Positions 34,770 through 64,000 of a DNA stretch of 64,000 nt are shown piece by piece. Origin of the DNA: Bacteroidota bacterium (lineage in GTDB: Bacteria > Bacteroidota > Bacteroidia > 2-12-FULL-35-15). The translations under genes and the position numbers were made by a program. The stretch is taken from positions 28,495-92,494 of the forward strand of contig CANJPX010000006.1 in assembly GCA_947476185.1 (NCBI GenBank). Reading direction: 5' to 3'. The notes beneath the pieces are model-generated. The model was not told where the DNA came from. It made no database searches and worked only from the letters and a program-made list of their open reading frames with translations. Position 1 is the stretch's first letter; every line of letters begins with the position of its first letter.

Positions 34770-36788
34770 ATGGCCTATAATTTTAAAGATAGAGAGATCA
34801 CAAAGATCTCTGTAATTGGTGCTGGACAGATTGGTCCAGACATTGCATTGCATTTTGCAAAATCACTTTCACCATTCGGTGTAGTTATAAATGTTATTGA
34901 TATTTCTCCTGAGGCATTGGAGAAAGCGAAAGCGAAAGCACATAAAAAAATTCAGAAAGGGTTAGAGTCGGGTGCGTTTAAGCCTGAACTGGCTGAAAAG
35001 ATAAAGAACGCCTTGGTATTTTCTGCTGATTACGAAAATGTACGCGGCTCACAAATTGTTGTGGAAGCAGCAACTGAAGATGAAAATATCAAAGACAAAA
35101 TTTTTAGACAGGTAGAATCACTTACTGATGATAAATGTATTTATCTTTCTAACTCTTCGCATATGCAGCCGGAAGTCATATTCCGGAATATTAAAAATAA
35201 ATCCCGCAGTTTAGTGGCACATTATTTTTTTCCTGCAGAAATAAATTTAGTTGTTGAATTGGTTCCCGGTAAAGAAACAGATGCTGATCTGGTAAATCTA
35301 TTACTTGGATTTTATGAGGCGATCGGAAAGGTTCCTATCAAAGTAAAAAGTTCTTACGGCTATGCCATAGATCCTGTTTTTGAAGGTATTTGTCAAACTG
35401 CCATCATGTGTTTGGAAAAGGGTTGGGGAACTGAAAAGGAAATTGATACTGCTGCAGTGAAATCTTTAGGCTTGGGCATTGGGCCTTTTACTGCCTTAAA
35501 TCTTACAGGAGGAAATCCTATTACTGCACATGGATTGGATGAATTGGGGAAATTAGTAATGCCTTGGTTCAAAACCCCGAATATTCTTCACGAAAAAAAT
35601 AAGAGTAAAGAACTTTGGAACACTGCTCAACGTGGTGAAAAAGTTGAACTGTCTCCTGAGAAAGAAGAAAAATTAGTAAAAGAATTTCAAGGTGCATTCT
35701 TTGCATTAACATCTTTTATTTTAGATCTGGATATCGTTGATATTAATGATTTTAATATGGCGTGTGAGATGTCACTTGTTATCCGGGCACCATTCTCATT
35801 TATGAATAAAGTGGGCATCGATAAGTCTTACGGATTGGTTAAAGATTTTTGTGCAACACATCCGACTTTTACATTCCCGAAAATCTTGGATAAAGCAAAA
35901 GCAGCTGGAGTTTGGAAATTACAGGACATTATTGCTACTAAACTCGATGGTGTTTGTGTGCTGACAATCCGCAGACCGAAAGTTTTAAATGCACTGAATC
36001 TCGAAGTGCTTGGTCAGATAAAAAATGAATTGGAGAATGTGAAGAATGATGATTCTGTTAAAGCTGTTGTTATTACCGGATTTGGAACTAAAGCATTTGT
36101 GTCCGGTGCCGATTTGAATATGCTTGCATCTTTAAAAACTCCCGAAGAAGGATATAATAATTCTCATACTTTTCAATCTGTGTTGAATTATGTTGAAAGC
36201 TTTGCTAAACCAGTAGTGTGTGCTATGAACGGTTTTGCATTTGGTGGTGGAAATGAATTAGCAATGTCTTGTACGGCACGTATTTGTAAGAAAGGCTTGC
36301 CTGTTTTGGTTTGTCAACCTGAAGTGAACTTAGGATTTATTCCGGGTGCAGGTGGAACCCAACGTCTACCGCGTATTGTAGGAGTTGAAAAAGCTGCTGA
36401 AATATTGCGTACGGCTAGAAATGTTTCGGCAAAAGAAGCAGCTGAGATTGGATTAGTATACAAAGAGGTGGAAGGGGATCTGGTTGATGAAGCAGTAAAA
36501 TTTGCAAAACAAATTGCATCCGGTGATGTTAAAGTGAAAACAATTCCGCAGGATGCTATCTCGACAAATGGAAACCCAATACAACTGGAGATAGGACATT
36601 TGAGCAAAAAAATTGATGAGATAATTGTAAAAGCGATCTATGAAGGTTCTCACTTGAGTTTGAAGGATGGTCTTGAATTAGAATCACGGATGTTCGGAGA
36701 ATGTCTTTTAACAGAGGATATGAAAATTGGTTTGGAAAATTTCAAATCGAACGGACCAAAAGCTAAAGCGAATTTTATTCATAAATAG
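34770..36788 (+). CDS. Bifunctional 3-hydroxyacyl-CoA dehydrogenase/enoyl-CoA hydratase (HCDH-ECH order)
   Basis: N-term '[16 protein letters not shown]', '[17 protein letters not shown]'; C-term ECH '[12 protein letters not shown]', '[19 protein letters not shown]'. Confidence 0.9.
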
Positions 36789-36789
36789 A

Positions 36790-38922: not shown

Positions 38923-40582
38923 AATATTAGTTTCCATTTTTCAACGTGCCTTCAAATCCATCACGGATGAGATGAGCATCTCATTGACAAAAACTACACG
39001 CTCTCCGATCTTATGTGAAGCAAAAGATTTTGTGACAGGTCTTTACGATGCAAAAGGCCAAATGCTTGAGCAAACAGAGAACCTTCCTATTCTTTCTTTT
39101 TCTTTAGGACCTGTTTGTAAAGTGATATTGGAGCAATATGGAAAAGAGATCCACGAAGGCGATGTGATCATTCACAACGACGTTTTCACCATGGGAAATC
39201 AGAACAATGATGTGGCGATCTTTAAACCTATTTTTCACGAAAATGAATTAGTTGGATGGTCTGCTGCAAAAGGTCATCAAGCTGATATTGGCGGAGCCGT
39301 TCAAGGTGGATACAATCCGAATGCAACTGAAGTTTGGCAGGAAGCAATACGGATTCCTGCTGTGAAATTATATGAAAAAGGAAACTTTCGTAAAGATGTT
39401 TGGAATTTGATCTTTGCGAATATCCGTCTTCAAATGGTTCAGGAAGATATAAAAGCACAAATTGGTGCATGTACACTTGGTGAACGGAGATTACAGGCAT
39501 TTGTCGCAAAATATGGATTGGAAGTTTTTGAAGCGCACAAAATAGCATTGTTCGATTCTACAGAAAAAATGATGCGCGCGGAAATTAAAAATATTCCAAA
39601 CGGTGTATATAAAGGCGGTAGTACTGTGTATTATGATGGTAAACACAAAGGAAGTAAATTCCCTATTCGTACCGAGATCACTGTAAGGAATGAAGATATC
39701 ACTTTTGATTTTTCAAAATCATCGCCACAAACAAAAGGATTTGTTAACGGGATATATACTTCAACGTGCTCTGCAATCACCCTTACTTTCTTGCAGATGA
39801 TTAATCCGAATATTCCACACAATGAAGGAATGATAAAACCTTTAAAATATATCGTACCTGAAGGAACAATTCTGAATGCTTCTTATCCTGCAGCGACAAC
39901 ATTTGGAAATCATCTTTGTCCGCAAATAGCTGATGCTATTTTTAAGGCACTCGGTCCTGCAGTTCCTGAAAGGATTACAGCCGGTTGGAATCACTTATTG
40001 TGTTCCCTCTTCACGGGTAATCATCCGCGTACAGGTAAAAAATATGTGGACATCTGTTTCCTTGGATTAAAGGGTGGCAGTGGTGCAATGAAAAATGATG
40101 ATGGTTATGATCACATTGGAATGATTGATGCTTCCGGTGGTGTGCTGGATCAGGATTATGAAATGTATGAACAGCAAACGCCCCATTTAATTGTGCAACA
40201 CGAATATTTATGTGACTCCGGTGGAGCAGGTCAGTGGCGCGGTGGATTAGGTACCTCAACTCAAATCATGCTTCGTGGTGACGATACCACAATGGTTGTT
40301 TTTGGTGATGGAGATGTGGAAACCAATTATGGTTTATTTGGTGGTAAGGGCAGCGTCCTTAATAAGATCGAGTTAAAATATAAAAATGGAAAAAAAGTTA
40401 TTCCTATGAGTAAAGATATGATTCATGGAATTCCTAATAACACCTTGTACCATCAAATAGCCAGTGGTGGCGGCGGATATGGAAATCCGAAAAAGCGCGA
40501 TAGGGAAAAGTTGAAACAAGATGTGAAGAATGAAGTCGTTTCAAAAAAAGTTGCTGAAAAAATTTATGGTCTAAAAAAATAA
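38909..40582 (+). CDS. hyuB: Hydantoinase B/oxoprolinase family protein
   Basis: 'SISLTKTTRSPILCEAKDFVTGLYDAKGQMLEQTE', 'EGDVIIHNDVF', 'GGAGQWRGGLGTSTQIML'; overlaps hyuA by 14 bp. Confidence 0.92.
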   Translation: MKVDKILVSIFQRAFKSITDEMSISLTKTTRSPILCEAKDFVTGLYDAKGQMLEQTENLPILSFSLGPVCKVILEQYGKEIHEGDVIIHNDVFTMGNQNNDVAIFKPIFHENELVGWSAAKGHQADIGGAVQGGYNPNATEVWQEAIRIPAVKLYEKGNFRKDVWNLIFANIRLQMVQEDIKAQIGACTLGERRLQAFVAKYGLEVFEAHKIALFDSTEKMMRAEIKNIPNGVYKGGSTVYYDGKHKGSKFPIRTEITVRNEDITFDFSKSSPQTKGFVNGIYTSTCSAITLTFLQMINPNIPHNEGMIKPLKYIVPEGTILNASYPAATTFGNHLCPQIADAIFKALGPAVPERITAGWNHLLCSLFTGNHPRTGKKYVDICFLGLKGGSGAMKNDDGYDHIGMIDASGGVLDQDYEMYEQQTPHLIVQHEYLCDSGGAGQWRGGLGTSTQIMLRGDDTTMVVFGDGDVETNYGLFGGKGSVLNKIELKYKNGKKVIPMSKDMIHGIPNNTLYHQIASGGGGYGNPKKRDREKLKQDVKNEVVSKKVAEKIYGLKK

Positions 40583-40585
40583 ATT

Positions 40586-40987
40586 ATGAATCACGAAATA
40601 ATTTTGCCTGATGGCTGGCCGATTCCTAAAGGTTATTCAAATGGAATTCTTGCTGCAAAAGGAAGAACACTTTTTCTGGCAGGGCAAGTTGGTTGGACAC
40701 CTGAGGAAAAATTTGCGAGTGATAAATTGGTACCTCAGTTTGAGCAGGCACTGAAAAATATTGTTGCAATTGTAAGCAAAGCTGGTGGTAAACCTGAACA
40801 CATCTGCAAGATGACCTGTTTCTGCAAAGACCGAGAGCAATATTTAGCCAACAGAAGAGAGTTAGGAAAGATCTGGAAGGAAATAATTGGCAATCATTAT
40901 CCATGTATGAGTATGATCTTTATAGTTGATCTTTTAGATCATCCCGCAGTTATTGAAATTGAAGCCACAGCTGTTATACCTGAATAA
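40586..40987 (+). CDS. Rid (RidA/YjgF) family protein
   Basis: 'ILAAKGRTLFLAGQVGWTPEEKF', 'QALKNIVAIVSKAGGKPEHICKMTCFCKDREQY', 'PAVIEIEATAVIPE'. Confidence 0.88.
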   Translation: MNHEIILPDGWPIPKGYSNGILAAKGRTLFLAGQVGWTPEEKFASDKLVPQFEQALKNIVAIVSKAGGKPEHICKMTCFCKDREQYLANRRELGKIWKEIIGNHYPCMSMIFIVDLLDHPAVIEIEATAVIPE

Positions 40988-42117
40988 TGGATTTTGAACT
41001 AAGTGATATACAAAAACAAATACAACTGACTTTTCGCGATTTTGTGGATAGGCGCGTGAAGCCTGTTGCGGGCAAGTTAGATGAAGAGAAGAAATTCCCA
41101 ACAGAACTTTTTAAGGAAGTGGGTGATATGGGTTTTTTTGGAATGCGTTATCCCGAAAATGCTGGTGGTAGTGGATTAGATATTGTTTCATACTCCCTTG
41201 CTGTGATCGAAATGGCTCGAGGTTCTCTTTCTCTTGCAGCTGCTTGCACAATGCAATCGTTGATGGGAACTTATTTTTTATATCGTTTTGGCGATAAAGA
41301 AATTAAAGAGAATTATTTTGATGAAGCATTGAAAGGAAATAAGATCGGTGGAATATGCATGACGGAGCCCAATGCAGGAAGTGATCTGATGGCAATAAAA
41401 ACAATTGCGAAAGTTACTGAAGATGGTTTTATTTTAAACGGACAAAAGACCTGGGTTACATCAGCCCCCGTGGCTGACTTTTTTACTGTGCTTGCAAGAA
41501 CAGATAATCACGAACAACTTTCCATATTTTTTGTTCCTTCCAATTTAAAAGGAGTACTAATAGGAAAGAGTATTGAAAAGATGGGGGTTCGCGCCTCTGT
41601 TACCAGTGAAGTTTCTTTCAGTGATGTGAAGCTTCCAAAAAAATATTTACTTGGAGAAATTGGTGGCGGGACAAAATGTCTGAAAGAAATTCTTGCTGAA
41701 ATAAGAATTATGACTGCTGCTCTTGCAATAGGCGTTGCTACAGCGGCCTATGAAGATGCATTAAAATATGCCAATGAACGTTCTCAATTCGGAAAACCAA
41801 TCGGGAAATTCCAGGCGGTGCAAATGAAGTTTGCAGACATGGCTGTTCAGTTAGAAACAGCGAAACTTTATGTTTTTTTTGCTGCAACTTTAAGTGATCA
41901 GAATAAACCGCGACAAAAAGAAGCTATGATCGCAAAATTATATGCCTCTGAAATTGCAAATACTATTTGTGATGAAGCTTCCCGTGTGTTGGCATCATAC
42001 GGTTATGCAGTTGAATATAACATTGAGAGATATTTGCGTGATGCCCGATTTACACTTATTGGCGGTGGTACTTCAGAAATATTGAAAATAAATATTGCAA
42101 AAGAATTAGGATTATGA
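40987..42117 (+). CDS. Acyl-CoA dehydrogenase family protein
   Basis: 'GGICMTEPNAGSDLMAIKT', 'ERSQFGKPIGKFQAVQMKFADM', 'YNIERYLRDARFTLIGGGTSEILKINIAKEL'. Confidence 0.93.
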   Translation: MDFELSDIQKQIQLTFRDFVDRRVKPVAGKLDEEKKFPTELFKEVGDMGFFGMRYPENAGGSGLDIVSYSLAVIEMARGSLSLAAACTMQSLMGTYFLYRFGDKEIKENYFDEALKGNKIGGICMTEPNAGSDLMAIKTIAKVTEDGFILNGQKTWVTSAPVADFFTVLARTDNHEQLSIFFVPSNLKGVLIGKSIEKMGVRASVTSEVSFSDVKLPKKYLLGEIGGGTKCLKEILAEIRIMTAALAIGVATAAYEDALKYANERSQFGKPIGKFQAVQMKFADMAVQLETAKLYVFFAATLSDQNKPRQKEAMIAKLYASEIANTICDEASRVLASYGYAVEYNIERYLRDARFTLIGGGTSEILKINIAKELGL

Positions 42118-44582: not shown

Positions 44583-45950
44583 ATGAGTTATATTAAATCA
44601 TACGGAATTGCATTGCCTCATTTCAGAGTTGAGGACAGCACACTTCATCCTTCGGGTAAAAAGGGGGGTATGAAAGCTGTTTGTTTTGCCGATGAAGATA
44701 TCATTACATTGGCTTTTGAGGCATCATGTAATATAAATAAAGAAGGTGTCGATGGAATATTTTTTGCAACATCATCCTCTGTTTTTAATAATCGTTATCA
44801 CGCTTCTTTTCTTGCAGATCTGTTAAATCTTTCTCAAGGAATTTTAGCACTTGATTTTACGAACTCCGCCCGAAGCGGAACAGATGCTCTTCTTTTAGCA
44901 AATGATTTGATCGGTTCAGGTAAATACAAAAATATTTTAGTCGTGTCAGCAGATGTGAATTTTCCGAAAATAGGTAAAGAAAGATCAACACCTTTTGGTC
45001 ATGCAGCTTGCGCCATACTATTAAGTAAAGAAAAAGGAATTGCAGAGATCACAAGTTCCGGATCGTATAGTTCTTCTTTGGCAGAAGAATTCTCTTATAA
45101 ATCAAATACAATACAAAATGATCCACGGTACAGTCGTGATGCAGGATTCAAAAATAATATTACAACTACTATAAAGAGGATTGTTTCGAAGCCGGATTCT
45201 TTTGATGCTATTATTCTTAATTCACTTTATGCACGAATGGCAGGTGGGATTTTTGCAAAAGCAGGGTATACGGAAACCCAATTTGCAAAAGATTCTCTTA
45301 CTTCTAAAATTGGTAATACGGGTTCCACGCATGCACTTCTGCTGCTTATTAATGAATTAGAGAATGGAAAGAAAAGTATTTTACTGGCAGATTATACTAA
45401 CGGAACAAATTTGTTTGAAATAAAAACATTTACGTTTCCTGAAAATAAATGTTTACAAGAACAACTGAGTAAATATGATCTGATCAATTGTTATCAGGAT
45501 TATTTGCTTTTAAGAAAAGCAGGGAATTTTGGATCTTTCACATACACTACGAAAGAAATGTTTTCATCTGAAATGATGCATGAAAGAGAGAAAGATACAT
45601 TGCAATATTTAAAAGGATTGAAATGTGATATGTGTGGAACAATCTATTACCTGAAAGCTGCAAGATGTAAAAAATGCAAGTGTGAAACTTTTTCAACGGT
45701 CCAACTTTCAAAAACAGGTAACGTTTATGCCTTTACTTCTGAACATTATTTCCCTTCCTCTTTTCCTCCAATTACCTTGGTAATCGTTGATCTTGATGGA
45801 GGAGGAAGAATGACTGTTCAGCAAACTGATACGTTACTACCTGAAAAAAATAAAATGGAAATAGGTGTAAATGTGAAATTGGTTTTGAGGAAAATGATTG
45901 AAAATGATGCAAAACCAAATTATTTCTGGAAAGCAAAACAAAATGGGTAA
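44583..45950 (+). CDS. KAS III/HMG-CoA synthase-fold protein fused to C-terminal DUF35 Zn-ribbon/OB domain (predicted non-catalytic)
   Basis: 'LALDFTNSARSGTDALLLANDLI' (Ala where the nucleophile Cys is expected); C-terminal 'CDMCGTIYYLKAARCKKCKCETFSTVQLSKTGNVYAFT'. Confidence 0.8.
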   Translation: MSYIKSYGIALPHFRVEDSTLHPSGKKGGMKAVCFADEDIITLAFEASCNINKEGVDGIFFATSSSVFNNRYHASFLADLLNLSQGILALDFTNSARSGTDALLLANDLIGSGKYKNILVVSADVNFPKIGKERSTPFGHAACAILLSKEKGIAEITSSGSYSSSLAEEFSYKSNTIQNDPRYSRDAGFKNNITTTIKRIVSKPDSFDAIILNSLYARMAGGIFAKAGYTETQFAKDSLTSKIGNTGSTHALLLLINELENGKKSILLADYTNGTNLFEIKTFTFPENKCLQEQLSKYDLINCYQDYLLLRKAGNFGSFTYTTKEMFSSEMMHEREKDTLQYLKGLKCDMCGTIYYLKAARCKKCKCETFSTVQLSKTGNVYAFTSEHYFPSSFPPITLVIVDLDGGGRMTVQQTDTLLPEKNKMEIGVNVKLVLRKMIENDAKPNYFWKAKQNG

Positions 45951-47127
45951 GCAAACAGATATAGCAATCATAGGAATCGGTGTTACAAAATTCGGTGAAT
46001 TGTTTCATCAGAGTTATGATGACCTGGTTCGTGATGCAGCATTACAAGCTGTTGCTGATGCGAAAATTTCCTTGGATGATATTGGGGCGGCGTGGTTATC
46101 AACTGCTTTTCCGGAAATAGGAGTTTTCAAAGGAAGAAGCGGAATGGATCTTAGCGAGCCGCTTTCATTATATAATATACCTGTAACGCGGGTTTCAAAT
46201 TTTTGTGCTTCCGGTGCTGATGCTATTCGTAATGCCATTAATGCTTTACGTGCAGGAGAGTGTGATGTGGCAATGGCACTTGGTGTTGAAAAACTTCGTG
46301 ATCGTCAGCCTCAGGATAGCATTGTAAAAATGATGGTGGAATATGGTCACCCCTTTTTGCAAAAAGGATTTACTGCTGCAGGCACTTTTGCTGTTTATGC
46401 GAATAGGATGATGAAAGAATTTGGTCTGACTCGGGAAGATATTTCAAATGTTTCTGTGAAGAATCATTTTCACGGCTCCTTAAATGATAAAGCTTTTTAT
46501 CGTAAACCTTGTACTCTTGAAGAAGTGATGCGGTCTCAAATGGTTGCAGATCCTCTGACTGTTTTGGATAGCTGCCCGACAACGGATGGAGCTGCCTGTG
46601 TAATTATGGTTCGTGCTGAAGATGTTGATAAGAAAAAGCATAATCCTGTTTTTGTTAAAGGCCTTGGTTTGTCTGTTTCTACCGGATGGGATCTGCCTTT
46701 TTTCGATCCGAATCATGATTTCCTTTCTTTCGAAGCAACCCGTAATGCGGCAAAAATGGCTTACAAACAAGCTGGAATTACTGATCCGATCGAAGAACTT
46801 GATCTGGTTGAAGTGCATGATTGTTTTTCAATAGTGGAATTACTTACGTATGAAGATCTTGGTTTATGTAAACAAGGGGAGTCAAAAGATTTGATTCGCG
46901 GTAAGGAAACACAACTTGGTGGAAAAATTCCGGTAAATGTTAGTGGAGGACTTTTATCATGCGGTCATCCTGTTGGAGCAACAGGAATAAGAATGGTAGT
47001 TGAAGTTTCAAATCATTTGCGTGGTAATGCCGGTGAACGACAAGTTAAAAATGCAAAGAGAGGATTAACACATAACATTGGTGGTCCCGGTGCTATTGCA
47101 TCAGTTATAGTTTTAGAAAAATATTAA
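45943..47127 (+). CDS. Thiolase (SCP-x/acetyl-CoA acetyltransferase-like)
   Basis: 'VSNFCASGADAIRNAINALRAGECDVAMALGVEKL', 'VEVHDCFSIVELLTYEDLGL', 'VNVSGGLLSCGHPVGATGIR'. ATG at 45943 overlaps the upstream stop. Confidence 0.9.
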   Translation: MGKQTDIAIIGIGVTKFGELFHQSYDDLVRDAALQAVADAKISLDDIGAAWLSTAFPEIGVFKGRSGMDLSEPLSLYNIPVTRVSNFCASGADAIRNAINALRAGECDVAMALGVEKLRDRQPQDSIVKMMVEYGHPFLQKGFTAAGTFAVYANRMMKEFGLTREDISNVSVKNHFHGSLNDKAFYRKPCTLEEVMRSQMVADPLTVLDSCPTTDGAACVIMVRAEDVDKKKHNPVFVKGLGLSVSTGWDLPFFDPNHDFLSFEATRNAAKMAYKQAGITDPIEELDLVEVHDCFSIVELLTYEDLGLCKQGESKDLIRGKETQLGGKIPVNVSGGLLSCGHPVGATGIRMVVEVSNHLRGNAGERQVKNAKRGLTHNIGGPGAIASVIVLEKY

Positions 47128-50903: not shown

Positions 50904-51287
50904 ATGAAAGTTCTTTTAGCAAAGCCCGGTCTTGATGGCCACGATGTTGGAGTTAAAGTATTAGCTCATGGATTAATAGAAGCTGGATTTAAAGTAGTTT
51001 ATACCGGACTCAGAAAAACAATTGAAGAGATCGTAGATATGGCGACTGAAAATAAAGTTGATATTATCGGGATGTCAATTCTTTCAGGAACACATTTGGT
51101 TCTTGCAAAAAAAATGAAGGAAGTAATGGACGAAAGAAAATTAAATATTCCTTGGTTTGTTGGAGGAAATATTCCTGCAAAAGATATTGATGAGTTAAAA
51201 AAAATCGGGGCAGCACAAGCTTTTCCTACCGGAAGCAAAGTGATGGATGTGGTGGCCTATTTTAATGCAATAAAAATAACAGCATAA
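50904..51287 (+). CDS. B12-binding subunit of acyl-CoA mutase (methylmalonyl-CoA mutase C-terminal domain family)
   Basis: 'KVLLAKPGLDGHDVGVKVLAHGLIEAGFKVVYTGLRKTIEEIV' with the DxHxxG cobalamin motif; stand-alone. Confidence 0.94.
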   Translation: MKVLLAKPGLDGHDVGVKVLAHGLIEAGFKVVYTGLRKTIEEIVDMATENKVDIIGMSILSGTHLVLAKKMKEVMDERKLNIPWFVGGNIPAKDIDELKKIGAAQAFPTGSKVMDVVAYFNAIKITA

Positions 51288-51313: not shown

Positions 51314-52948
51314 ATGGCTGATGCAAAAATAAAATCTATGAAAGGTAAAACTGCGAAGGAGTTAAATGTAAAGCCGGTTTTTCTTGAATCCGGATTAGAA
51401 GTGAATCCTGTTTATACTGCAGAAGATTTGAATGCAACAAGTAGTACTCATGAGATGCCGGGCGAATATCCTTTCACCCGTGGTATTCATCCTACAATGT
51501 ATCGCAATAAACCATTTACTATTCGTCAATATGCCGGATTTGCATCTCCTGAAGAAACCAATGAACGATTTCAATTTTTAATAAAAAACGGACAATCAGG
51601 ATTAAATGTTGCTTTTGATCTTCCAACACAATGCGGACTCGATTCCGATGATCCACGGGCTTTTGGTGAAGTTGGAAGAGTTGGGATGTCGATTGACACA
51701 TTACATGATTTTGAAATTGCATTTAAAAATATTGACCTTGATAAGATAACAGTTTCAATGACAATTAATGGAACTGCAATTATTCTGATTGCCATGTATA
51801 TCGCTATGGCAGAAAAAGCAGGATATGATATTTCTACACTTCGAGGGACTGCTCAAAATGATATATTGAAAGAATTTATCGGTAGAGGAACCTGGATCTT
51901 TCCCGTTGATAAATCCGTTAAATTGGTGGTTGATACAATCGAATATTGCGCTAAGCATGTTCCTAAATATAGTCCTGTTAGTGTCTGCGGATATCATATC
52001 AGAGAAAGTGGAGCTAACCCGATCCAGGAAATGGCATATGCTTTCTGTATCGCAAAGGCTTATACTGATGGAGCATTGAGCAGAGGAATTACAATCGATG
52101 ATTTTGCATCACGACTGTCATTCAATTTTGATATTTATGGAAATCTTTTTGAACAGGTTGCAAAATTCCGTGGAGGAAGAAGATTGTGGGCGAAAATAAT
52201 CCGTGAAGAGTATGGTGCAAAAAAAGACAGTTCTTGTTGGTTGAGAATGATCGCTGGTGGAGGTGGAGGAGGATTAACAAAAGAACAACCTGAAAATAAT
52301 ATTGTACGAAGTGCCTACTATGCATTGATAAGTGCGCTTTCCGGGACGCAAACAATGGCTCTTTGTAGTTATGATGAAGCGTATACAATTCCTACAGAAC
52401 ATTCTGCCGAAATTTCTTTGCGTACCATGCAGATCATGATCCATGAAATGGGCATATGTGATACAGTTGATCCTTTAGGCGGTTCTTATTATGTAGAAGC
52501 ATTGACTGATAAATTTGAGGAAGAAATTAAAAAAGAAATGAAAACGGTTGAGAAGTGGGATGGAATAATTAATGCAGTTGCAACCGGAAAGATTCAGGAG
52601 TCTGTTTCTAAACAAGCATATGTGAGAGAAATGGGAATGCAGACCGGTAAAGTTCCTAAAGTAGGTGTAAATATTTATACCAGAGAAGAAGAAGCAAAAG
52701 ATGTTGAATTTCATCCCTACAATTTAAAAGCAGCAAATGCTCAAATAGGGGAATTGAAAACAACAAAAGCAGCAAGAGATTCTGAAAAGGTAAAAGCGTG
52801 TTTGGCATTGGTAAAACAAGATGCAATAGAGGATAAAAATTTAATGCCCTCGATAATTGCTGCAGTAAAAGAATATTGTACAGTGGGTGAAATTGTTTCT
52901 GCAATGAAAGAAGTGTATGGAGAATTTAAAGAACCAATATTTTTTTAA
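51314..52948 (+). CDS. Coenzyme B12-dependent acyl-CoA mutase large subunit (MCM family, noncanonical substrate loop)
   Basis: 'GEYPFTRGIHPTMYRNKPFTIRQYAGFASPEETNERF', 'LRGTAQNDILKEFIGRGTWIFP', 'VCGYHIRESGA', 'LRMIAGGGGGGLTKEQPENNIVR'. Confidence 0.92.
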   Translation: MADAKIKSMKGKTAKELNVKPVFLESGLEVNPVYTAEDLNATSSTHEMPGEYPFTRGIHPTMYRNKPFTIRQYAGFASPEETNERFQFLIKNGQSGLNVAFDLPTQCGLDSDDPRAFGEVGRVGMSIDTLHDFEIAFKNIDLDKITVSMTINGTAIILIAMYIAMAEKAGYDISTLRGTAQNDILKEFIGRGTWIFPVDKSVKLVVDTIEYCAKHVPKYSPVSVCGYHIRESGANPIQEMAYAFCIAKAYTDGALSRGITIDDFASRLSFNFDIYGNLFEQVAKFRGGRRLWAKIIREEYGAKKDSSCWLRMIAGGGGGGLTKEQPENNIVRSAYYALISALSGTQTMALCSYDEAYTIPTEHSAEISLRTMQIMIHEMGICDTVDPLGGSYYVEALTDKFEEEIKKEMKTVEKWDGIINAVATGKIQESVSKQAYVREMGMQTGKVPKVGVNIYTREEEAKDVEFHPYNLKAANAQIGELKTTKAARDSEKVKACLALVKQDAIEDKNLMPSIIAAVKEYCTVGEIVSAMKEVYGEFKEPIFF

Positions 52949-52954
52949 ATAGCA

Positions 52955-54160
52955 ATGCGAACAAAAAAAGATATTATTGTATTATCACTTGAGCAAGCTC
53001 TGGCACTGCCATTTGCAACACAACGAATGGTGCATCAGGGGTGGCGTGTGATCCGGCTTGAGACTCCTGCAGAAGACGGTGGAGGAAATCCCGGTGATCC
53101 GAATAGATACATTGGTGCTGATCTTGGTTATCATGATCTGCATTCCTATTACATCGCTCCTAATATCGGAAAGGAAGCGATCACCATTAATTTAAAAAAG
53201 AAAGAAGGTCAGGAGCTTCTCTTGAAACTAATAAAAGAATTAGAAGTTGATGTATTCATGTGCAATACTTTGCCAAAACGTTACAAACAACTTGGAATTG
53301 ATTTTGAAACATTAAAACAAGCTAATCCAAATATCATTTGGTGCGGTATTTCTGCCATGGGGCCTGATTATCCGGATCGTGCAGGTTATGACCCGGCATT
53401 GCAAGCATTGATGGGTTATACTTATTTAACCGGAGAGTCGGATGGAAAACCTGTTCCCTCTGGAATTCCGATAATTGACTTGAAGGCTGGCGATGAAGCA
53501 TTTACGCAGGTTATTCTTGCGATGTTAGATCAGAAAGCGGGTGGAAAAGAAATACATATTTCTATGGCACAATGTGCTGCCAGTTGGTTAATAACAGCAT
53601 TGCCTCAATTGGAATTTGTGAAAAATGAAAATGAACTTTTCACAAGAAGTGGAAATGAGCATCGCAGTTTTATTCCATGTAACGTTTATCCAACAAAAGA
53701 TGGAATGGTATATCTTGCAATTGGAAATGATTCTCAATGGGCAAAATTTTCTTCACATGTCGGATTCGAAAAATTAGCATGTGAGAGCAGAAGAACAAAT
53801 GCGGGAAGGATGATTGAAAAAGAGAATATCTATAAAGAGATCGGTGAATGCACAAAAGAATATTCTACGAAGGAATTTGTGGACCTGTGTTTAAAAATAA
53901 ATCTCGCTGTTTCTCCTGTAAATACTACCAAAGACGTTGCTTCACTTGATTTTGTATCTAAGGAATTAATTAAAACAGTTTTGCCAAGCGGTAAAACTGT
54001 TGCACTTTTTCCGTCCTCAGTTGAAACGGATTTTTTGAAAGAAAACAATAATGTGCTTTCATTTGCTCCTCGTTTAGGGGAACAAAATAAGATAGTTTTT
54101 TCTGAGGCAGGTTTTTCTGAGACAGACATTAATGAGATGGCAAAAAATAATGTGATATAA
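52955..54160 (+). CDS. CaiB/BaiF (type III) CoA-transferase
   Basis: 'ALALPFATQRMVHQGWRVIRLETPAEDGGGNPGD', 'NLKKKEGQELLLKLIKELEVDVFMCNTLPKRYKQLGIDFETLKQANPNIIWCGISAMGP'. Confidence 0.92.
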   Translation: MRTKKDIIVLSLEQALALPFATQRMVHQGWRVIRLETPAEDGGGNPGDPNRYIGADLGYHDLHSYYIAPNIGKEAITINLKKKEGQELLLKLIKELEVDVFMCNTLPKRYKQLGIDFETLKQANPNIIWCGISAMGPDYPDRAGYDPALQALMGYTYLTGESDGKPVPSGIPIIDLKAGDEAFTQVILAMLDQKAGGKEIHISMAQCAASWLITALPQLEFVKNENELFTRSGNEHRSFIPCNVYPTKDGMVYLAIGNDSQWAKFSSHVGFEKLACESRRTNAGRMIEKENIYKEIGECTKEYSTKEFVDLCLKINLAVSPVNTTKDVASLDFVSKELIKTVLPSGKTVALFPSSVETDFLKENNNVLSFAPRLGEQNKIVFSEAGFSETDINEMAKNNVI

Positions 54161-54161
54161 T

Positions 54162-57100
54162 ATGATAGAGCGCACGATAAATATTTTAACAGCTCATTCT
54201 TCAGAACACAAGACTTGTGTAATGGGGAATGAAGGAATAGCTCGTGCCGCAATTGAAGCAGGTGTTGATGGCGTTTTTTCTTATCCCGGTACTCCTTCAA
54301 CAGAGATCTCTGAAATTTTTAATCACGTAAATAATTTTCAAAGCGAAACTTCTAACAAAGAGAAATATCCTGAACAAACATACCATCCAATTTATTTTGA
54401 ATACAGTATAAATGAAAAAATTGCTTTAGAAAAGGCCATTGCTTTTTCTATAGGAAACAAAAGTGCTTTGTGTGTGATGAAGAATGTTGGAATGAATGTA
54501 GCCAGCGATCCTTTGATGTCGGTTACGTATCAAACCATCGTTGCTCCTTTGGTTATTGTTGTTTGCGATGACCCGGGTTGTCATTCAAGTTCAAATGAAC
54601 AGGATTCCAGATATTGGGGGCCAATGGCATCTGTTCCGATTTTTAATCCCGCAACTCCTGATGATGCATTTAAAATGATCAAGCAGGCTTTTGAACTTTC
54701 AGATAAAATAAAATTACCTGTTATTGTTCGCACTACTACTCGCGTTTCACATACACGTGGGATCGTAACTTATGGAAATGTGTTTTATAGATCACGCGAT
54801 GCTCACTTTGACCGGTTACCGGAACATATTAATATTCCGGCAAGAACAGCAACTGCACATACACGATTGCTGGATAAATTAAGATCAGAAAATGTTCTTG
54901 CATTATTGAAACATAATAGCAAAACAATTCTTGATGGTGAAGGTGCTAAGTTGGGAATAATAAGTAGTGGTGTTGCAACATCCTATGTAACAGAAATTCT
55001 TTTTCAGAATGATCTTTCACATAAAGTAAATCTTCTTGATTTAGGTTTAATACATCCATTTCCTGAAAAGGAGGTTGTGGATTTTCTGAAAAAAGGTTTT
55101 GAGAAAATTCTGATTCTGGAAGAATTAGATGCTTTTGTTGAATCGGCAGTTCGCAATGTAGCGCAGCGGAATGGACTCAATGTATCTATTTTAGGAAAGG
55201 GTTTTTCAGAAATTGCTTTGACAGGTGAATTTTCTATTGATATTATCACAAAAGTGCTAGAAGATTTTTCGGGCAGTTCTTTTGAAAAGAATAAAAATGA
55301 GCCTTTGCAAAATGCCGATAAATTTCTGGATAAACTACCTCCTCGTCCTCCAACTCTTTGTGCCGGTTGTCCGCATCGTGCTACTTTTTATCTTTTGAAA
55401 CTTGCTATTCCTCGTGAACAAAGTGAATTGATCATGTGTGGAGATATCGGTTGTTTTGGGTTGGGTGCACTTCCTCCTTTGAAAATGATTGATACGATCA
55501 ATCATATGGGTATGAGTATTTCGATGGCTCAGGGATTATATGAATCATTTCATTCATCTGAAAAAAGTAAAAAGGTTGTTGCTCTTTTGGGAGACGGAAC
55601 TTTCTTTCATAGTGGCTTGGCCTCTCTTGTGAATGCAGTTTATACACGTGCAAATATTTTGGTTATCATATTTGATAACAGAACTACCGGAATGACCGGT
55701 CATCAGCCACACCCTGGAGCTTCTCGCACATCAAAATATCATGAAATTGACCTTCCTCCATTGCTTAAAGGTTTAGGAATAGAAGTTGTTGAAACGATCA
55801 ACCCTTTTAATGTAAACGAAAGTTTTGAAAAGGTCAATAAAGCGATGGAACATGAAGGTGTGTCAGTTCTCGTTTCGAGAGCCCCTTGTATTTTTCTTCC
55901 GGATTTCAAAGATAAGATCGATAAGAGAATGAAAATTGTCGTGGATCCGAATCGTTGTAATACTTGCGAAAATCACGAAGATATTTCTCTTTCTTGCTCA
56001 CGGTGTTATGCTCCAAAAAGTAATTTATCCAGAGCTAAGGCAAAATTGGTTGCTGAATTTTCTATTGCCGGTTCGGAACAACTTTGTCCTGCAAATATTT
56101 GTAACCATGGCTTTTTTAATTCCGTGCTTGAAAGTGAATTTAAATCAGCAATAGAAATTGTTCGTGATAAAATATTGTTTGCCCGTACCTGTGGCGATAT
56201 TTGTCACCGACCATGCGAATTTTTCTCTAAAGAGGAAAATGTTATTCCGATAAAACTGATCAAAAAAACTGTATCCTCTTTTGATGAATTGTTTCTCGAT
56301 TTTTCTGCTCCTATAAAAAGAGCGAAAGAGGCTCCGAAAAAAAATAAAACGGTCGCTATTATTGGTGCTGGTCCGGCAGGTCTAAGTGCTGCTTATGATC
56401 TGATTCAAGCCGGATATAATGTTAGTATTTTTGAAAAAGAAAGTAAGGCCGGAGGGATGGTCACTTTTGCAATTCCGTATTTCAGAATGGATAAATCGGG
56501 TTTTGATACCGAAGCAATGCAGTTGGAAAAGATGGGTGTTAAATTTCATTTCAACAGATCTCTAGGAAAAGATTTCACCTTAGAAAAATTGGAGAAAGAA
56601 TTTGACTCCGTTATTCTTGCAATTGGAATGAATAGTTCCAAAACACTCGACATCATTGAAAAAAGTATTCCTTCATCAAAAAAGAGTGACGCATTGTCTT
56701 TTCTAAAAATGTTCAATCATCAGGAAAATAATATTAAAGAAAATTCAACAATTTTAATTATCGGTGGTGGAAATAGTGCTATTGATGCGGCTAGATCTGC
56801 GAAAAAAATGCATCCTGAGAATAGGGTCATTGTGTCTTGCATTGAAACGGAAAGTACAATGCCTGCTTTTGTTGAGGAAGTTAAACACGCTGCTGATGAA
56901 GGTGTGAAATTTATTTTTGATAGTTATGTGGAGAAGGTTTCGGTTGGAAAGAATGAACAAATAAATATTGTTCTGAATTCCTTCAGCGATAAAAAAGAAT
57001 TGTCTAATTTCCATTGTGATCATGTGATTACGGCCATCGGACAAACTGCTGAAGAAGCTGTTATCGGAGCACTTCAAAAGGATGAAAGTACAAGAGTGAA

Positions 57101-57524
57101 AAGTGAAAATAGTTATACAGGCTACGGAAATGTTTTTGCTGCCGGTGATATCAGCTCCGGAAATAACATTAGTGTGATCGGAGCAATCGCCTCCGGGAAA
57201 AAGGCTGCAATAGGGGTCCGTAAACTTTTGGAGAATTATAAATTTGAGTATGAAGGCGAAGAAGCATTGGAGCGTTTAAATACTCAAACACTTCCAACTA
57301 GAAATTCTCTTGCTCAAAATACGGATGTTGAAATTGAGAAGTTTGACCTGTATCAATCCTGCAAAAAATGTAATCATTGTATCGATAATTTTGGTTGTCC
57401 TGCAATGGTAAAAGTAAATGGGAAAGTCCAAATAGATATGAGTCGTTGTAACTTATGCGGTTTGTGTATTGATGTTTGTCCGAACAATGCGATCAGTTGG
57501 GAAGCAGAAACCGTGATAAATTAG
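54162..57524 (+). CDS. iorA: Indolepyruvate:ferredoxin oxidoreductase alpha-like subunit fused to GltD-like FAD/NAD(P) module and 4Fe-4S domain
   Basis: IorA-like 'MGNEGIARAAIEAGVDGVFSYPGTPSTEISEIF', 'RPPTLCAGCPHRATFYLLK', 'LGDGTFFHSGLASLVNAVY'; GltD-like 'VAIIGAGPAGLSAAYDLIQAGYNVSIFEKESKAGGM', 'IIGGGNSAIDAARSAKKM'; C-term 'CNLCGLCIDVCPNNAI'. Confidence 0.88.
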   Translation: MIERTINILTAHSSEHKTCVMGNEGIARAAIEAGVDGVFSYPGTPSTEISEIFNHVNNFQSETSNKEKYPEQTYHPIYFEYSINEKIALEKAIAFSIGNKSALCVMKNVGMNVASDPLMSVTYQTIVAPLVIVVCDDPGCHSSSNEQDSRYWGPMASVPIFNPATPDDAFKMIKQAFELSDKIKLPVIVRTTTRVSHTRGIVTYGNVFYRSRDAHFDRLPEHINIPARTATAHTRLLDKLRSENVLALLKHNSKTILDGEGAKLGIISSGVATSYVTEILFQNDLSHKVNLLDLGLIHPFPEKEVVDFLKKGFEKILILEELDAFVESAVRNVAQRNGLNVSILGKGFSEIALTGEFSIDIITKVLEDFSGSSFEKNKNEPLQNADKFLDKLPPRPPTLCAGCPHRATFYLLKLAIPREQSELIMCGDIGCFGLGALPPLKMIDTINHMGMSISMAQGLYESFHSSEKSKKVVALLGDGTFFHSGLASLVNAVYTRANILVIIFDNRTTGMTGHQPHPGASRTSKYHEIDLPPLLKGLGIEVVETINPFNVNESFEKVNKAMEHEGVSVLVSRAPCIFLPDFKDKIDKRMKIVVDPNRCNTCENHEDISLSCSRCYAPKSNLSRAKAKLVAEFSIAGSEQLCPANICNHGFFNSVLESEFKSAIEIVRDKILFARTCGDICHRPCEFFSKEENVIPIKLIKKTVSSFDELFLDFSAPIKRAKEAPKKNKTVAIIGAGPAGLSAAYDLIQAGYNVSIFEKESKAGGMVTFAIPYFRMDKSGFDTEAMQLEKMGVKFHFNRSLGKDFTLEKLEKEFDSVILAIGMNSSKTLDIIEKSIPSSKKSDALSFLKMFNHQENNIKENSTILIIGGGNSAIDAARSAKKMHPENRVIVSCIETESTMPAFVEEVKHAADEGVKFIFDSYVEKVSVGKNEQINIVLNSFSDKKELSNFHCDHVITAIGQTAEEAVIGALQKDESTRVKSENSYTGYGNVFAAGDISSGNNISVIGAIASGKKAAIGVRKLLENYKFEYEGEEALERLNTQTLPTRNSLAQNTDVEIEKFDLYQSCKKCNHCIDNFGCPAMVKVNGKVQIDMSRCNLCGLCIDVCPNNAISWEAETVIN

Positions 57525-57525
57525 A

Positions 57526-57942
57526 ATGTTGAAAAGTTGGCCCTATAATATTACCCCTAACAAAGTAATTTCTACCGAAATTGGTGATATATTTATCGAT
57601 GAAAATGGTGTCTTGGTCATGCGGTATACAAGCGATCTTGATTTTGGGCTGGAAATGGCTAAGTCTGCTATCAAAATCTGTGAGGATATAGTTGGTGATC
57701 ATAAGGTTCCGGTTATGGTAATTACCGGAGAATTTGGTAGTATGTCGACCGAGACTCGTGAATATCTTTCAGGTAAAGAAGTTGCAAAACACAGAAAGGC
57801 TGTTGCTCTGGTTGTCAATAATTTATCTCATAGATTAATAGCACAGTTTATCATTAAAATGAGGAATAAATATTATCCAACACAAGTTTTCAAAAATGAA
57901 GAAGAAGCCTTAATTTGGCTAAATAAAATAAATGAATCATAA
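57526..57942 (+). CDS. Small STAS/SpoIIAA-like protein between iorA and iorB
   Basis: 138 aa, 'VPVMVITGEFGSMSTETREYLSGKEVAKHRKAVALVVNNLSHRLIAQFIIKM' alpha/beta pattern; 2 bp after iorA and overlapping iorB. Confidence 0.5.
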   Translation: MLKSWPYNITPNKVISTEIGDIFIDENGVLVMRYTSDLDFGLEMAKSAIKICEDIVGDHKVPVMVITGEFGSMSTETREYLSGKEVAKHRKAVALVVNNLSHRLIAQFIIKMRNKYYPTQVFKNEEEALIWLNKINES

Positions 57943-58531
57943 GTGTAAAAAAATACTGATTGCAGGTGTTGGCGGACAAGGAATTGTCTATCTCAGCAAT
58001 ATCATTGTGGAGGCTGCAATGCTATCCGGTATTCCTGTCAGTGTTAGTGAAATTCATGGACTTTCGCAACGTGGGGGAGTTGTTACTTCCGGAATTGGAT
58101 TAGGGGAAAATTGCTCCGGATTTTATGGAAAAGCAGGGATTGATATTCTTATTGGTCTCGAGCCTTTAGAAACACAAAGATGTTTAAGCTATCTGCATAA
58201 GAATAGTAGTGTGATTTTCGGAAATTACCGAGTTCAACCTTATGCAGTTAATGCTCAGATGGCAGAGTATCCAGAGGTTAATGATTTTGTAGCTTATATA
58301 AGTGAGCAATGCAAGGAAGTTGTCTATATAGAGAAGTTTCCCGAAAATATTGATTCTGTTCTGTATAATGTTTTTCTTCTTGGAAGAGCCACCAGGATGC
58401 AGGATTTTCCGCTTTCTGCAAATAAAATTGAAGAAGCTATAAATGCCACTGTTTTGGGATATTTTAAAGAGAAAACATTAAAAGCGTTTACCTTGGGATT
58501 GGAATTTGAATTGAACAAATTATCTGTATAA
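57932..58531 (+). CDS. iorB: Indolepyruvate oxidoreductase beta subunit (2-oxoacid:acceptor oxidoreductase gamma family)
   Basis: '[52 protein letters not shown]'. Confidence 0.9.
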
Positions 58532-58545
58532 TATCTTTTATAAAA

Positions 58546-59070
58546 ATGAAAAAAGATAAATTAAAAAAAGAAATACTTCATAATGTTTCCTTTTTATTAA
58601 ATGAGAAAAAAGTAAACTGTGAAATCAAAGCATCAACTATTTTGCTTGATCTGATCCGTGATGTGTTTGAATTGAAAGGGACAAAGCCTGGTTGTCATGA
58701 AGGTGAATGTGGAGCATGCACTGTTCTTGTTGATGGGGCACCTGTTAATTCATGCCTTTTTCTTGCGATTAATGCAAATGGAAAGAGCATTACTACCATT
58801 GAAGGTTTAATAAATAATGATGGTTCTTTGCATCCGATTCAAGAAGCACTTGTAGAAAAAGGTGCAGTACAGTGCGGTTTTTGTACTTCGGGAATGGCAA
58901 TGTCCATGAAAGCAATGTTGAATCAGTACGAAAATACACAACACGTTCCCGGTGAAGTAGTTCAGGACTTGCCAACAAGGGATGAAATAAAAAAATATTT
59001 AGAAGGTAACCTTTGCCGATGTACTGGTTATACAAAGATCATTGATGCTGCTGAAGAATTATTTAAATAA
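58546..59070 (+). CDS. Molybdenum hydroxylase 2Fe-2S subunit
   Basis: '[22 protein letters not shown]', '[17 protein letters not shown]', '[18 protein letters not shown]'. Confidence 0.94.
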
Positions 59071-59085
59071 GAATAACATTTTACA

Positions 59086-61407
59086 ATGGCTAAGAAATTA
59101 AAGGTTATTGGAACACCGGTTCCTAAGCAGGATGCAAATATCCGTGTAACCGGGAAAGCTGTTTACGGGCATGATATCAAATTGCCTAATATGCTGTATG
59201 GAGCTATATTACGCACAGAACACCCTTCTGCAATTATTCAATCTATTGATCTTTCGGAAGCAAAAAAACTTCCGGGGGTTGTTTGTATAATCACTGCTGA
59301 TGATGTGGATGTAAATAATATTGGTTACAAACGTGATCATCCTATTTTGAAAAAAGGGGAAGCGAATTGTACACGTGATGAAATAGCTGCTGTTGCTGCC
59401 GAAACTAAAGAGATTGCAAAACAAGCTTTGAAATTGATCAAAGTAAAATATAAGGTTAGAAAAGGAATTTATGATGCGAATGAAGCTTTAAAGGATAGTG
59501 CTCCGCAGATAAATAAGTTCATTAGTGGAAAGTTTGAAAATAAAAATATTGCAGAAACTTTTCATTATGAACATGGCGATCTGGAAGCAGCAAAAAAGAA
59601 CAGTGCACACATTGTTTCCAGGCGATTCACTTTGCCGCGCATGACACATGCATGTATGGCGACAAGCAATGTTACCGCAAGTTTTAATAAGGTTGATAAA
59701 AAATTATTAATGTATAGCTCAACCCAGGTGCCTTTCTTGTACCAACGGGATATGGCGCATGCACTAAAAATGAGTCCTTCTGATATTAGGGTTATTCAAC
59801 CAATTATCGGTGGAGGCTTTGGAAGTAAGTTGGATATCCATCCGTTTGAGCCTATTTGTGCTTTGCTTTCAATGAAGACCGGCAGACCTGTTCAGATACT
59901 TTTTTCACGTGAAGAAGAGTTTATCGCTTCTCCTATCCGTCAACCTATGGTAATTGATCTTACCGCAGGTGTAGATAAGAAAGGGAATTTTACTTTCAGG
60001 GAAATAAATATCGTAAAGGATAATGGCGCTTATACATCCTGGGGTGCAACTACACCATTTGTTATCATGCAGTCATTTTCCTCGCTTTATAAATTGAAAG
60101 CATGTAAGTTCAATGCTACAGCAGTATATACAAATAATGTTTTTGCCGGATCCTTCAGAGGTTATGGAAATCCTCAGGCAACTTTTGCCTTAGAACGAGT
60201 AATTGATCTGCTGGCGGATAAAATCGGGATGGATAAAGCTGAAATACGTTTGTTGAATGCAAACGAAAAAGGCGAGGTAACAGGGCAGGGTTTACACTTT
60301 GATACTTGCGGCCATAAAGAATGTTTGGAAACTGTTATCAAGAAAAGTAATTACAATAAAAAGGTAAATGCTAAGCAGGATGCAAGATTCAAGAAAGGCA
60401 TTGGTCTGGCTTCCATGTTACATGTTGGAGGTGGAGCGAAAATATATCGTTCGGATGGATGCGGAACAACCTTGAAAATTGATCCATACGGGTATTGCAC
60501 CATCATTAGCGGGTCAAATGAAATTGGTCAGGGATCAGAAACTGTTTTAGCAATGATGGCGGCTGAAGAATTGGGAATTGACCTGAAGAAAATAAAAGTA
60601 ATTAATACAGATACTGATGTAAAACCTTGGGATGTGGGTGTTCATGCCTCCAGAACAAGTTTTGTGGCCGGTAACTCTTTGTTGGGTGCGATCAAAATAT
60701 TAAAAGAAAAACTCAGCAAAAAGGCTTCTGAATTAATGAATGTCGATTATTCTGATTTCGATTATGAGAACGGGCAAATTAGTTCGGTAAAATCAAAAGA
60801 TAGCATTGCACTGGATAAAGTGGTTCGCGAGATGCATTTTTCTGAGCCGAATGAACTTGCAATTGCTTCTTTTTTTTATGAGCCATCAAGTAAATTTCAG
60901 GATAAAAACTTTAAAGGAAATGTTTCCGGTTCTTATGCATTTGCTTCGCAGGCGATAGAAGTGGAAGTTGATGCATACACAGGGAATGTGAAAGTACTTG
61001 ATATTTATGTTGCACAGGATGTAGGAAAAGTTTTAAATCCACTGTTGCTTGGAGGTCAGATTGAAGGTGGATTATTACAAGGTGTTGGTTATGCATTGAC
61101 AGAAGAATTATTGATGCATGAAGGGAAGATCCTGAATCCTAATTTTCATAATTATAAAATGCTGACAGCCTCCGATATACCTGAGATTCATTTTTTTCCA
61201 ATTGAGACAAATGATAAGGAAGGTCCATATGGTGCAAAAGGTGTTGGTGAAGCTCCTTTGATTCCAACTGCAGCAGCTATTGCAAATGCTGTATGTAATG
61301 CACTTGGTGTTGAGTTTATTGAATTGCCGCTTACTCCTGAAAGAATTTTAAAAGCAATCTCATTGGGGAATGGGAACAAGCAAAAAACTACACTATTAAC
61401 TCCCTAA
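59086..61407 (+). CDS. Molybdenum hydroxylase Moco (large) subunit, xanthine dehydrogenase family
   Basis: 'IGGGFGSKLDIHPFEPICALLSMKTGRPVQILFSREEEF', 'NEIGQGSETVLAMMAAEELG', 'GPYGAKGVGEAPLIPTAAAIANAV'. Confidence 0.94.
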   Translation: MAKKLKVIGTPVPKQDANIRVTGKAVYGHDIKLPNMLYGAILRTEHPSAIIQSIDLSEAKKLPGVVCIITADDVDVNNIGYKRDHPILKKGEANCTRDEIAAVAAETKEIAKQALKLIKVKYKVRKGIYDANEALKDSAPQINKFISGKFENKNIAETFHYEHGDLEAAKKNSAHIVSRRFTLPRMTHACMATSNVTASFNKVDKKLLMYSSTQVPFLYQRDMAHALKMSPSDIRVIQPIIGGGFGSKLDIHPFEPICALLSMKTGRPVQILFSREEEFIASPIRQPMVIDLTAGVDKKGNFTFREINIVKDNGAYTSWGATTPFVIMQSFSSLYKLKACKFNATAVYTNNVFAGSFRGYGNPQATFALERVIDLLADKIGMDKAEIRLLNANEKGEVTGQGLHFDTCGHKECLETVIKKSNYNKKVNAKQDARFKKGIGLASMLHVGGGAKIYRSDGCGTTLKIDPYGYCTIISGSNEIGQGSETVLAMMAAEELGIDLKKIKVINTDTDVKPWDVGVHASRTSFVAGNSLLGAIKILKEKLSKKASELMNVDYSDFDYENGQISSVKSKDSIALDKVVREMHFSEPNELAIASFFYEPSSKFQDKNFKGNVSGSYAFASQAIEVEVDAYTGNVKVLDIYVAQDVGKVLNPLLLGGQIEGGLLQGVGYALTEELLMHEGKILNPNFHNYKMLTASDIPEIHFFPIETNDKEGPYGAKGVGEAPLIPTAAAIANAVCNALGVEFIELPLTPERILKAISLGNGNKQKTTLLTP

Positions 61408-62944: not shown

Positions 62945-63808
62945 ATGGAATTTAATATTGTAAGTCCAAAATCCAGATCCGAACTATTGGAGGCTATTCG
63001 CAAAGAAAAAAACTTTCGTTTTGGCGCTGGCTACACGGATCTTTTGATGGAGCTCAAAAAAAAGCCTCACGATAATTTAACCGTGATTAATCTTTCACAG
63101 ATCAAAGATGTTCAGTTATCCGGGATAAAAAAATCTGCAAAAGGTTTACGTTTGGGAGCTATGTTCACTGCTCATAAAATGGTCATGAACGAAGAGATCC
63201 GGAATAGTTATACAGCTCTTCATGAATCAGCTTTTAATCTGGCCTCTACACAGATCCGGCAGGTTGCAACAGTTGGAGGGAATTTGTGTACAGCTTCACC
63301 TTCCGGAGATATCGCATGTGCGCTGGTTGCTTTGGATGCAACGTGTGAACTTCTTTCAACTTCAGGAAAAAGTCGGAATATTCACATCACTGATTTTTTT
63401 ACAGGAGTGAGAAAAACGGCACTCAAAAAAAATGAAGTTTTGTATGGTATCTCTGTGCCATCAAAAAATAAAGACACAAAAAATATTTTTTCGAATTTTA
63501 TTAAAGTTGGGACAAGGCGCTCAATGGAATGCTCTGTTGTTTCTTTGGCATATCATATACAAGTAAATAAGAGCGGTGAGATCGTAAAGGCAGGTGTTGC
63601 GATAGGCGCTTCTGCTCCAACGGTGAGGTTTGCCGAGTCAGCGTGTAAATTTTTGATCGGGAAAAAGTATAAGTCTATTTCTGAAAAAGAGAAAGAAGAA
63701 TTTGCAAAAAAAGTACTTTCTTACGCCTCTCCGATCACAGATATTCGAGCAACAGCATGGTATAGAAAAGAAGTTTTGTTTAATATCAGTAAGAGCATTT
63801 TTTACTAA
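62945..63808 (+). CDS. Molybdenum hydroxylase FAD subunit
   Basis: 'FRFGAGYTDLLMELKKK', 'STQIRQVATVGGNLCTASPSGDIACALVALDA'; no HcrB-type Cys insertion. Confidence 0.92.
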   Translation: MEFNIVSPKSRSELLEAIRKEKNFRFGAGYTDLLMELKKKPHDNLTVINLSQIKDVQLSGIKKSAKGLRLGAMFTAHKMVMNEEIRNSYTALHESAFNLASTQIRQVATVGGNLCTASPSGDIACALVALDATCELLSTSGKSRNIHITDFFTGVRKTALKKNEVLYGISVPSKNKDTKNIFSNFIKVGTRRSMECSVVSLAYHIQVNKSGEIVKAGVAIGASAPTVRFAESACKFLIGKKYKSISEKEKEEFAKKVLSYASPITDIRATAWYRKEVLFNISKSIFY

Positions 63809-64000
63809 TGGAAATGAAAGTTGTAAAATTATCGGCTAACGAAAATTGCTATGGTTGTTCGCCCTTAGCGCTTGAGGCGATACTTAACAAATATAAAGAT
63901 GTTCATTTATATCCGGAAGTAAATCCCATTGCACTCAAAGAAAAACTGGCAGAGAAATTTAGTGTCAGGACAAATAATATTATTGTTGGAGCAGGATCTG
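63808..64000 (+). CDS. Class I/II (HisC-like) aminotransferase, 3' truncated by window
   Basis: My translation from ATG 63808: MEMKVVKLSANENCYGCSPLALEAILNKYKDVHLYPEVNPIALKEKLAEKFSVRTNNIIVGAGS; 'LSANEN-x-YG-x-SP' is typical of HisC-type enzymes. Confidence 0.82.
   Translation, partial: MEMKVVKLSANENCYGCSPLALEAILNKYKDVHLYPEVNPIALKEKLAEKFSVRTNNIIVGAGS

Follow-up and report, generated by a model that had tools for sequence, protein, structure and literature searches.

Background

Indolepyruvate oxidoreductases of the Pyrococcus furiosus type (IorAB; TIGR03336/TIGR03334) combine a TPP core and a C-terminal 2[4Fe-4S] domain with an IorB subunit encoded by a separate gene. Azoarcus evansii is said to possess both a 2-oxoglutarate:NADP+ oxidoreductase (KorABC) and a phenylglyoxylate:NAD+ oxidoreductase (PadEFGHI), each with a GltD-like FAD/NAD(P) subunit, and KorABC, in which the FAD subunit is separate, has reportedly been linked to aromatic ring reduction. 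Free-standing 2-oxoacid oxidoreductases that turn indolepyruvate into indoleacetyl-CoA have also been documented (PMC13290082). Here we describe a protein encoded in a 64,000-nucleotide stretch of a Bacteroidota genome (GCA_947476185.1; hereafter the window), which shares with IorAB the TPP core, the C-terminal 2[4Fe-4S] domain and a neighboring separate IorB-like gene, but which differs from it in carrying a GltD module ahead of the ferredoxin domain, in scoring below the equivalog cut-off and probably in using NAD+ as its acceptor.

Domain architecture of the fused protein

The gene at 54162..57524 (+) was found by ORF analysis to be a single frame of 1120 aa with an ATG start and no internal stops, and its profile matches place the TPP core of IorA first, followed by a GltD-like FAD/NAD(P) module that begins with a Cys domain and, last, a 2[4Fe-4S] ferredoxin domain. 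This is the IorA-GltD-ferredoxin triple fusion that the initial annotation had put forward, and a domain search recovered all of its components (TIGR03336, PRK12771 and Fer4) in the intact frame. The TPP core (aa 17-612; 54210..55997, +) was matched by the NCBIfam IorA profile TIGR03336 with 611.1 bits, under the equivalog cut-off of 650.9, and has the conserved GDG (477-479) and DN (505-506) motifs; among the 44 full-length fusions described below, GD, DN and YPGTP are each retained in 44/44 and G479 in 43/44. The GltD-ferredoxin profile PRK12771 matches aa 638-1112. At the start of this part lies a Cys-rich stretch (aa 599-685; 55956..56216, +) that the initial annotation took for a linker. 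It is instead the two-cluster domain with which a GltD module normally begins, and it has eight conserved cysteines, with C599, C602, C612, C642, C647, C677, C681 and C685 kept in 44/44 fusions.

The FAD/NAD domains that follow (aa 730-1040; 56349..57281, +) contain the two expected Rossmann motifs, GAGPAG (735-740) and GGGNSA (868-873), and the glycines of the former and GGGN of the latter are invariant across the 44 fusions, as are all 16 cluster cysteines. The region hence displays the N-terminal two-cluster domain, the GxGxxG FAD motif and the second Rossmann motif of a GltD module, and an initial concern that nucleotide-binding residues might be missing is not borne out by the alignment of the 44 proteins, in which these motifs are all in place. 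The terminal ferredoxin domain (C1067-C1106; 57360..57479, +; Pfam Fer4), which had been credited with a single 4Fe-4S site, comprises two [4Fe-4S] motifs (C1067, C1070, C1073, C1079 and C1096, C1099, C1102, C1106), with the eight cysteines present in 44/44. Because it has two such motifs, like that of ordinary IorA, the flavin module looks to have been inserted between the IorA core and the ferredoxin domain. A predicted structure of the fused protein (pLDDT 79.6, pTM 0.58) models the TPP region poorly (mean pLDDT 63 over aa 371-590), and inter-cluster distances lie beyond its reach; in a structure search with this model the GltD part alone was matched among the best 50 hits.

Phyletic distribution and origin of the fusion

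A genome scan recovered 75 loci, which together with the window supplied 44 full-length fused proteins from independent assemblies; as the sampling was seeded from fused peptides, close relatives are over-represented in this family. Most of them come from Bacteroidota MAGs; Gammaproteobacteria, Ignavibacteriales, Armatimonadetes and Hatepunaea contribute a few. In phylogenetic analysis the 47 fused sequences (the 44 of full length and three broken or cut frames) form one clade with a support of 100/100, and dN/dS, where computable, is about 0.03-0.09, a value that is indicative only given the saturation of dS. The fusion is real and conserved, and it is apparently unreported, a literature search having found an IorA-GltD fusion in no report; each of its parts has known counterparts. 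It is also uncommon, because in a phylum-wide sample of 396 genomes the sole match was the window's own genome, while samples of its own genus and class were richer. Among plasmid records the best matches were ordinary IorA or TPP-enzyme genes, none of them covering 80% of the query.

In two loci, L052 and L068, equivalent modules are encoded by two adjacent genes, and the IorA protein there is devoid of its own ferredoxin domain. This arrangement suggests that the fusion arose by the joining of a pre-existing pair of adjacent genes. A 752-aa PorC/KorC-GltD-ferredoxin fusion, adjoining genes for KorA and KorB (L012:2320-4575), is a second, parallel case in which a 2-oxoacid oxidoreductase has been joined with a GltD module. 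Several assemblies showed peculiarities of their own. In L041 (10001-13392) and L045 (10001-13416) the fused gene is broken, its two parts lying in frames that overlap or adjoin. L044 is labelled Competibacteraceae, yet its fused protein clusters with those of Bacteroidota and the label is probably wrong; the class search around its genome returned a genome (G064) with the same contig place as a Bacteroidetes genome (G039).

Conserved gene neighborhood

The fused gene is embedded in an operon, and the genes listed next lie on the + strand. Upstream of it, profile scans identified genes for the hydantoinase/oxoprolinase subunits HyuA (36727..38922) and HyuB (38909..40582), a RidA-family protein (40586..40987), an HMG-CoA-synthase-like protein with a C-terminal OB fold (44583..45950) and a lipid-transfer/BbsB-like thiolase (45898..47127), along with an acyl-CoA dehydrogenase (40987..42114), the small, B12-binding (50904..51287) and the large, methylmalonyl-CoA-mutase-like (51314..52948; IaaG/H-like, with an RGIH motif) subunits of a mutase, and an IaaL-like class III CoA transferase of the CaiB type (52955..54160). 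Downstream are the IorB-like gamma subunit that is the expected partner of the fused protein (57932..58531; NF005323/TIGR03334, under cut-offs), the 2Fe-2S (58546..59070), molybdopterin (59086..61407) and FAD (62945..63808) subunits of a Mo hydroxylase, and the 5' end of a HisC-like aminotransferase gene (63808..64000), whose remainder lies on another contig of the same genome (G000:C39:1-786).

This entire set, from HyuA/B through RidA, the dehydrogenase, the HMG-CoA-synthase-like protein, the thiolase, the mutase pair, the CoA transferase, the fused protein and IorB to the Mo hydroxylase and the HisC-like protein, is conserved across loci. An IorB/KorC-type gene is found in 44 of the 47 fused loci, a CaiB-type CoA transferase in 40/47 and a HisC-like aminotransferase in 31/47 as well as at the window end; the RGIH motif of the mutase large subunit is present in 39/39. 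A GGG in place of YEG is diagnostic of IaaF (PMC8360864), and we observed it in the window dehydrogenase (IGGGTSE) and in all 25 relatives in the loci. HyuAB, the Mo hydroxylase, the B12 mutase and the class III CoA transferase give the neighborhood the hallmarks of an iaa (indoleacetate-degradation) operon, and no IaaB-type acyl-CoA ligase is among the genes annotated in the window's copy.

Further genes of these neighborhoods are a DUF7793 ORF (57526-57942) between the fused gene and IorB, with no matching family in the other clustered loci; a class V aminotransferase-like gene (61446-62921) between the Mo hydroxylase subunits; and a 319-aa ORF (47141-48100) with no Pfam match, which lies inside the operon in four loci. 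One contig (G042:C13; L107 and L108) carries the iaa operon twice, head to head and with identical scores, which either reflects a genuine duplication or is a palindrome created by the assembly. TrpB2-like genes were found inside or beside the operon in L026, L031, L042, L071 and L036 (four iaa operons; adjoining the fused gene and IorB in L036), which suggests that indole may enter by way of tryptophan.

Predicted function in indoleacetyl-CoA formation

The IorA and IorB matches fall under the NCBIfam equivalog cut-offs, and the profiles therefore do not fix the substrate. Of 395 Bacteroidia genomes, 22 possess the mutase and 21 the fusion, and every one with the fusion also has the mutase (p = 6e-34, a value inflated by relatedness). 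When Gammaproteobacteria were searched by means of the mutase for an operon of the Aromatoleum type, one new genome emerged (G851), in which the iaa operon contains two AMP-forming acyl-CoA ligases and the fusion is absent (a single ligase-type operon). Taken together, the operon, the co-occurrence, the TrpB2 genes and these ligases point to conversion of tryptophan-derived indolepyruvate to indoleacetyl-CoA without IaaB.

As to the acceptor, the YRR motif of NfnB binds the phosphate of NADP and also marks the NADP-using DsrL-2, and in DsrL its loss accompanies the use of NAD(H) (PMC7596348). Anchoring on the MPA that comes after this site, we found CIE at the YRR position of the window protein, which thus lacks the signature of the NADP subgroup. 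Cys and Glu replace the Tyr and second Arg in 43/44 fusions, mostly as C-[I/L/V]-E, and the protein of L040 alone retains YRR. Because the motif is replaced so widely, and because its loss tracks NAD(H) use in DsrL, NAD+ rather than NADP+ is likely to be the acceptor.

The sequence itself shows that the chain is fused and conserved, which cofactor motifs it contains and in what operon its gene lies; from this we infer a substrate, an acceptor, an electron path, binding of a partner and a pathway order. We consider it probable that the fused protein is the alpha subunit of a CoA-acylating, decarboxylating indolepyruvate:NAD+ oxidoreductase, which acts with the IorB-like partner and feeds the iaa pathway in place of IaaB. 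The aminotransferase of the operon would convert tryptophan to indolepyruvate, which TPP in the IorA core would decarboxylate; electrons would then leave singly by way of the [4Fe-4S] pair of the C-terminal domain, cross to the cluster pair at the N-terminus of the GltD module and reach FAD, which would reduce NAD+ by hydride transfer. By analogy with dihydropyrimidine dehydrogenase (DPD), the order TPP, C-terminal clusters, GltD clusters, FAD and NAD+ would be a natural one (PMC8097209). The net reaction would be indolepyruvate + CoA + NAD+ -> indoleacetyl-CoA + CO2 + NADH, and the product could go straight into the iaa pathway, to be carried on to 2-aminobenzoyl-CoA, with the fused enzyme standing in for the ATP-consuming indoleacetate-CoA ligase IaaB and so saving its ATP. 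The built-in flavin/NAD module probably lets the enzyme make NADH directly without relying on ferredoxin. The initial annotation's suggestion of direct electron transfer from arylpyruvate to NAD(P)+ thus survives as the best reading, narrowed to indolepyruvate by the operon and to NAD+ by the change from YRR to C-I-E, and its suggestion of Nfn-type bifurcation or confurcation finds no support, neither the chain nor the profile-scanned operon genes having shown an NfnA-like domain.

These observations offer a concrete, testable example of gene fusion switching a 2-oxoacid oxidoreductase from ferredoxin to NAD. They also point to a whole route of tryptophan/auxin degradation in uncultured Bacteroidota, ending at benzoyl-CoA reductase, of which we found no report in the literature.

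Host redox background and alternative explanations

On contig C39 of the window's genome the remainder of the aminotransferase gene is followed by bcrCBAD-like genes (L122:1139-6057), whose BcrB and BcrC exceed the NCBIfam cut-offs; through this inferred contig link, the genes probably come after the window operon. The genome also has COX1-family genes alongside class I benzoyl-CoA reductase genes and PFOR, and two KorAB sets lie within the window. Because of the COX1-family genes and PFOR, the host probably lives both with and without oxygen and also uses ferredoxin. PFOR, the KorAB sets and the benzoyl-CoA reductase genes imply that ferredoxin is in use and that NAD+ need not be the sole acceptor. 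This raises the possibility, which we rate as rather unlikely, that electrons go to both NAD+ and a free ferredoxin feeding benzoyl-CoA reductase, with the GltD module balancing the two pools. The probable position of the bcrCBAD-like genes would fit such a role, as would the presence of BcrB in 22/22 fusion-bearing Bacteroidia (the 21 above and the window genome) against 43/340 in the class sample, and the reported link of KorABC of A. evansii, with its separate FAD subunit, to aromatic ring reduction; however, the separate KorAB sets could themselves provide the ferredoxin. It is likewise unlikely, and slightly more so, that the fusion controls how electrons are divided between NAD+ and ferredoxin, both starting tryptophan breakdown and helping to power the terminal benzoyl-CoA reductase, and this in Bacteroidota with genes for oxygen respiration as well.

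Aromatic 2-oxoacid oxidoreductases can take several arylpyruvates (PMC13285125, PMC13290082), and phenylpyruvate, 4-hydroxyphenylpyruvate or some other 2-oxoacid might be the substrate instead, with an incidental operon link; this is unlikely given that the fusion occurs almost exclusively together with the iaa mutase, and given the aminotransferase and TrpB2 genes beside it. We regard as highly improbable a flavin-based bifurcation or confurcation in which the GltD FAD, as in NfnB, divides electrons between low- and high-potential acceptors. The module is indeed near NfnB/NfnL in fold and sequence, but an NfnA-like second-flavin domain is absent from the chain and from the profile-scanned operon genes, StnC exemplifies a GltD module that has lost bifurcation (PMC10482914), and the low-potential oxidation of a 2-oxoacid can run downhill to NAD+ with no need of bifurcation. 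A conserved Arg of the FRMDK motif, R775, probably corresponds to R201 of NfnB, and it decides nothing here because the non-bifurcating StnC has an equivalent Arg too (PMC10482914). Finally, a sequencing or assembly frameshift joining two genes, which the initial annotation had raised and which the broken frames of L041 and L045 might recall, can be dismissed, given the intact window frame and the continuous fusion in 44 full-length homologs from independent assemblies with all 16 cysteines invariant.

Comparison with known systems

The preferred reading, an indolepyruvate:NAD+ oxidoreductase, has parallels in several systems. KorABC and PadEFGHI of A. evansii are, as reported, similarly composed of a 2-oxoacid oxidoreductase and a GltD-like FAD/NAD(P) part, but their flavin module is said to be a separate subunit and their catalytic core not of the IorA type. 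The Fraserbacteria operon of L052 (IorA, GltD-ferredoxin and IorB) and the Acetothermia pair of L068 (IorA and GltD-ferredoxin, with no IorB called adjoining it) share their modules with the fusion; they differ in comprising two chains, in retaining the NADP-type YRR and in having no iaa operon in the stretch seen. In DPD and NfnB/StnC, [4Fe-4S] clusters likewise link a GltD module with another catalytic unit (PMC8097209), but the catalytic domains are different and the nucleotide is NADP(H). The iaa operon of Aromatoleum aromaticum (PMC8360864) resembles that of the window in the GGG motif of IaaF and in its counterparts of the IaaGH-like mutase and the IaaL-like CoA transferase. A. aromaticum activates indoleacetate by the ligase IaaB (PMC8360864), whereas here that place would be held by the fused oxidoreductase.
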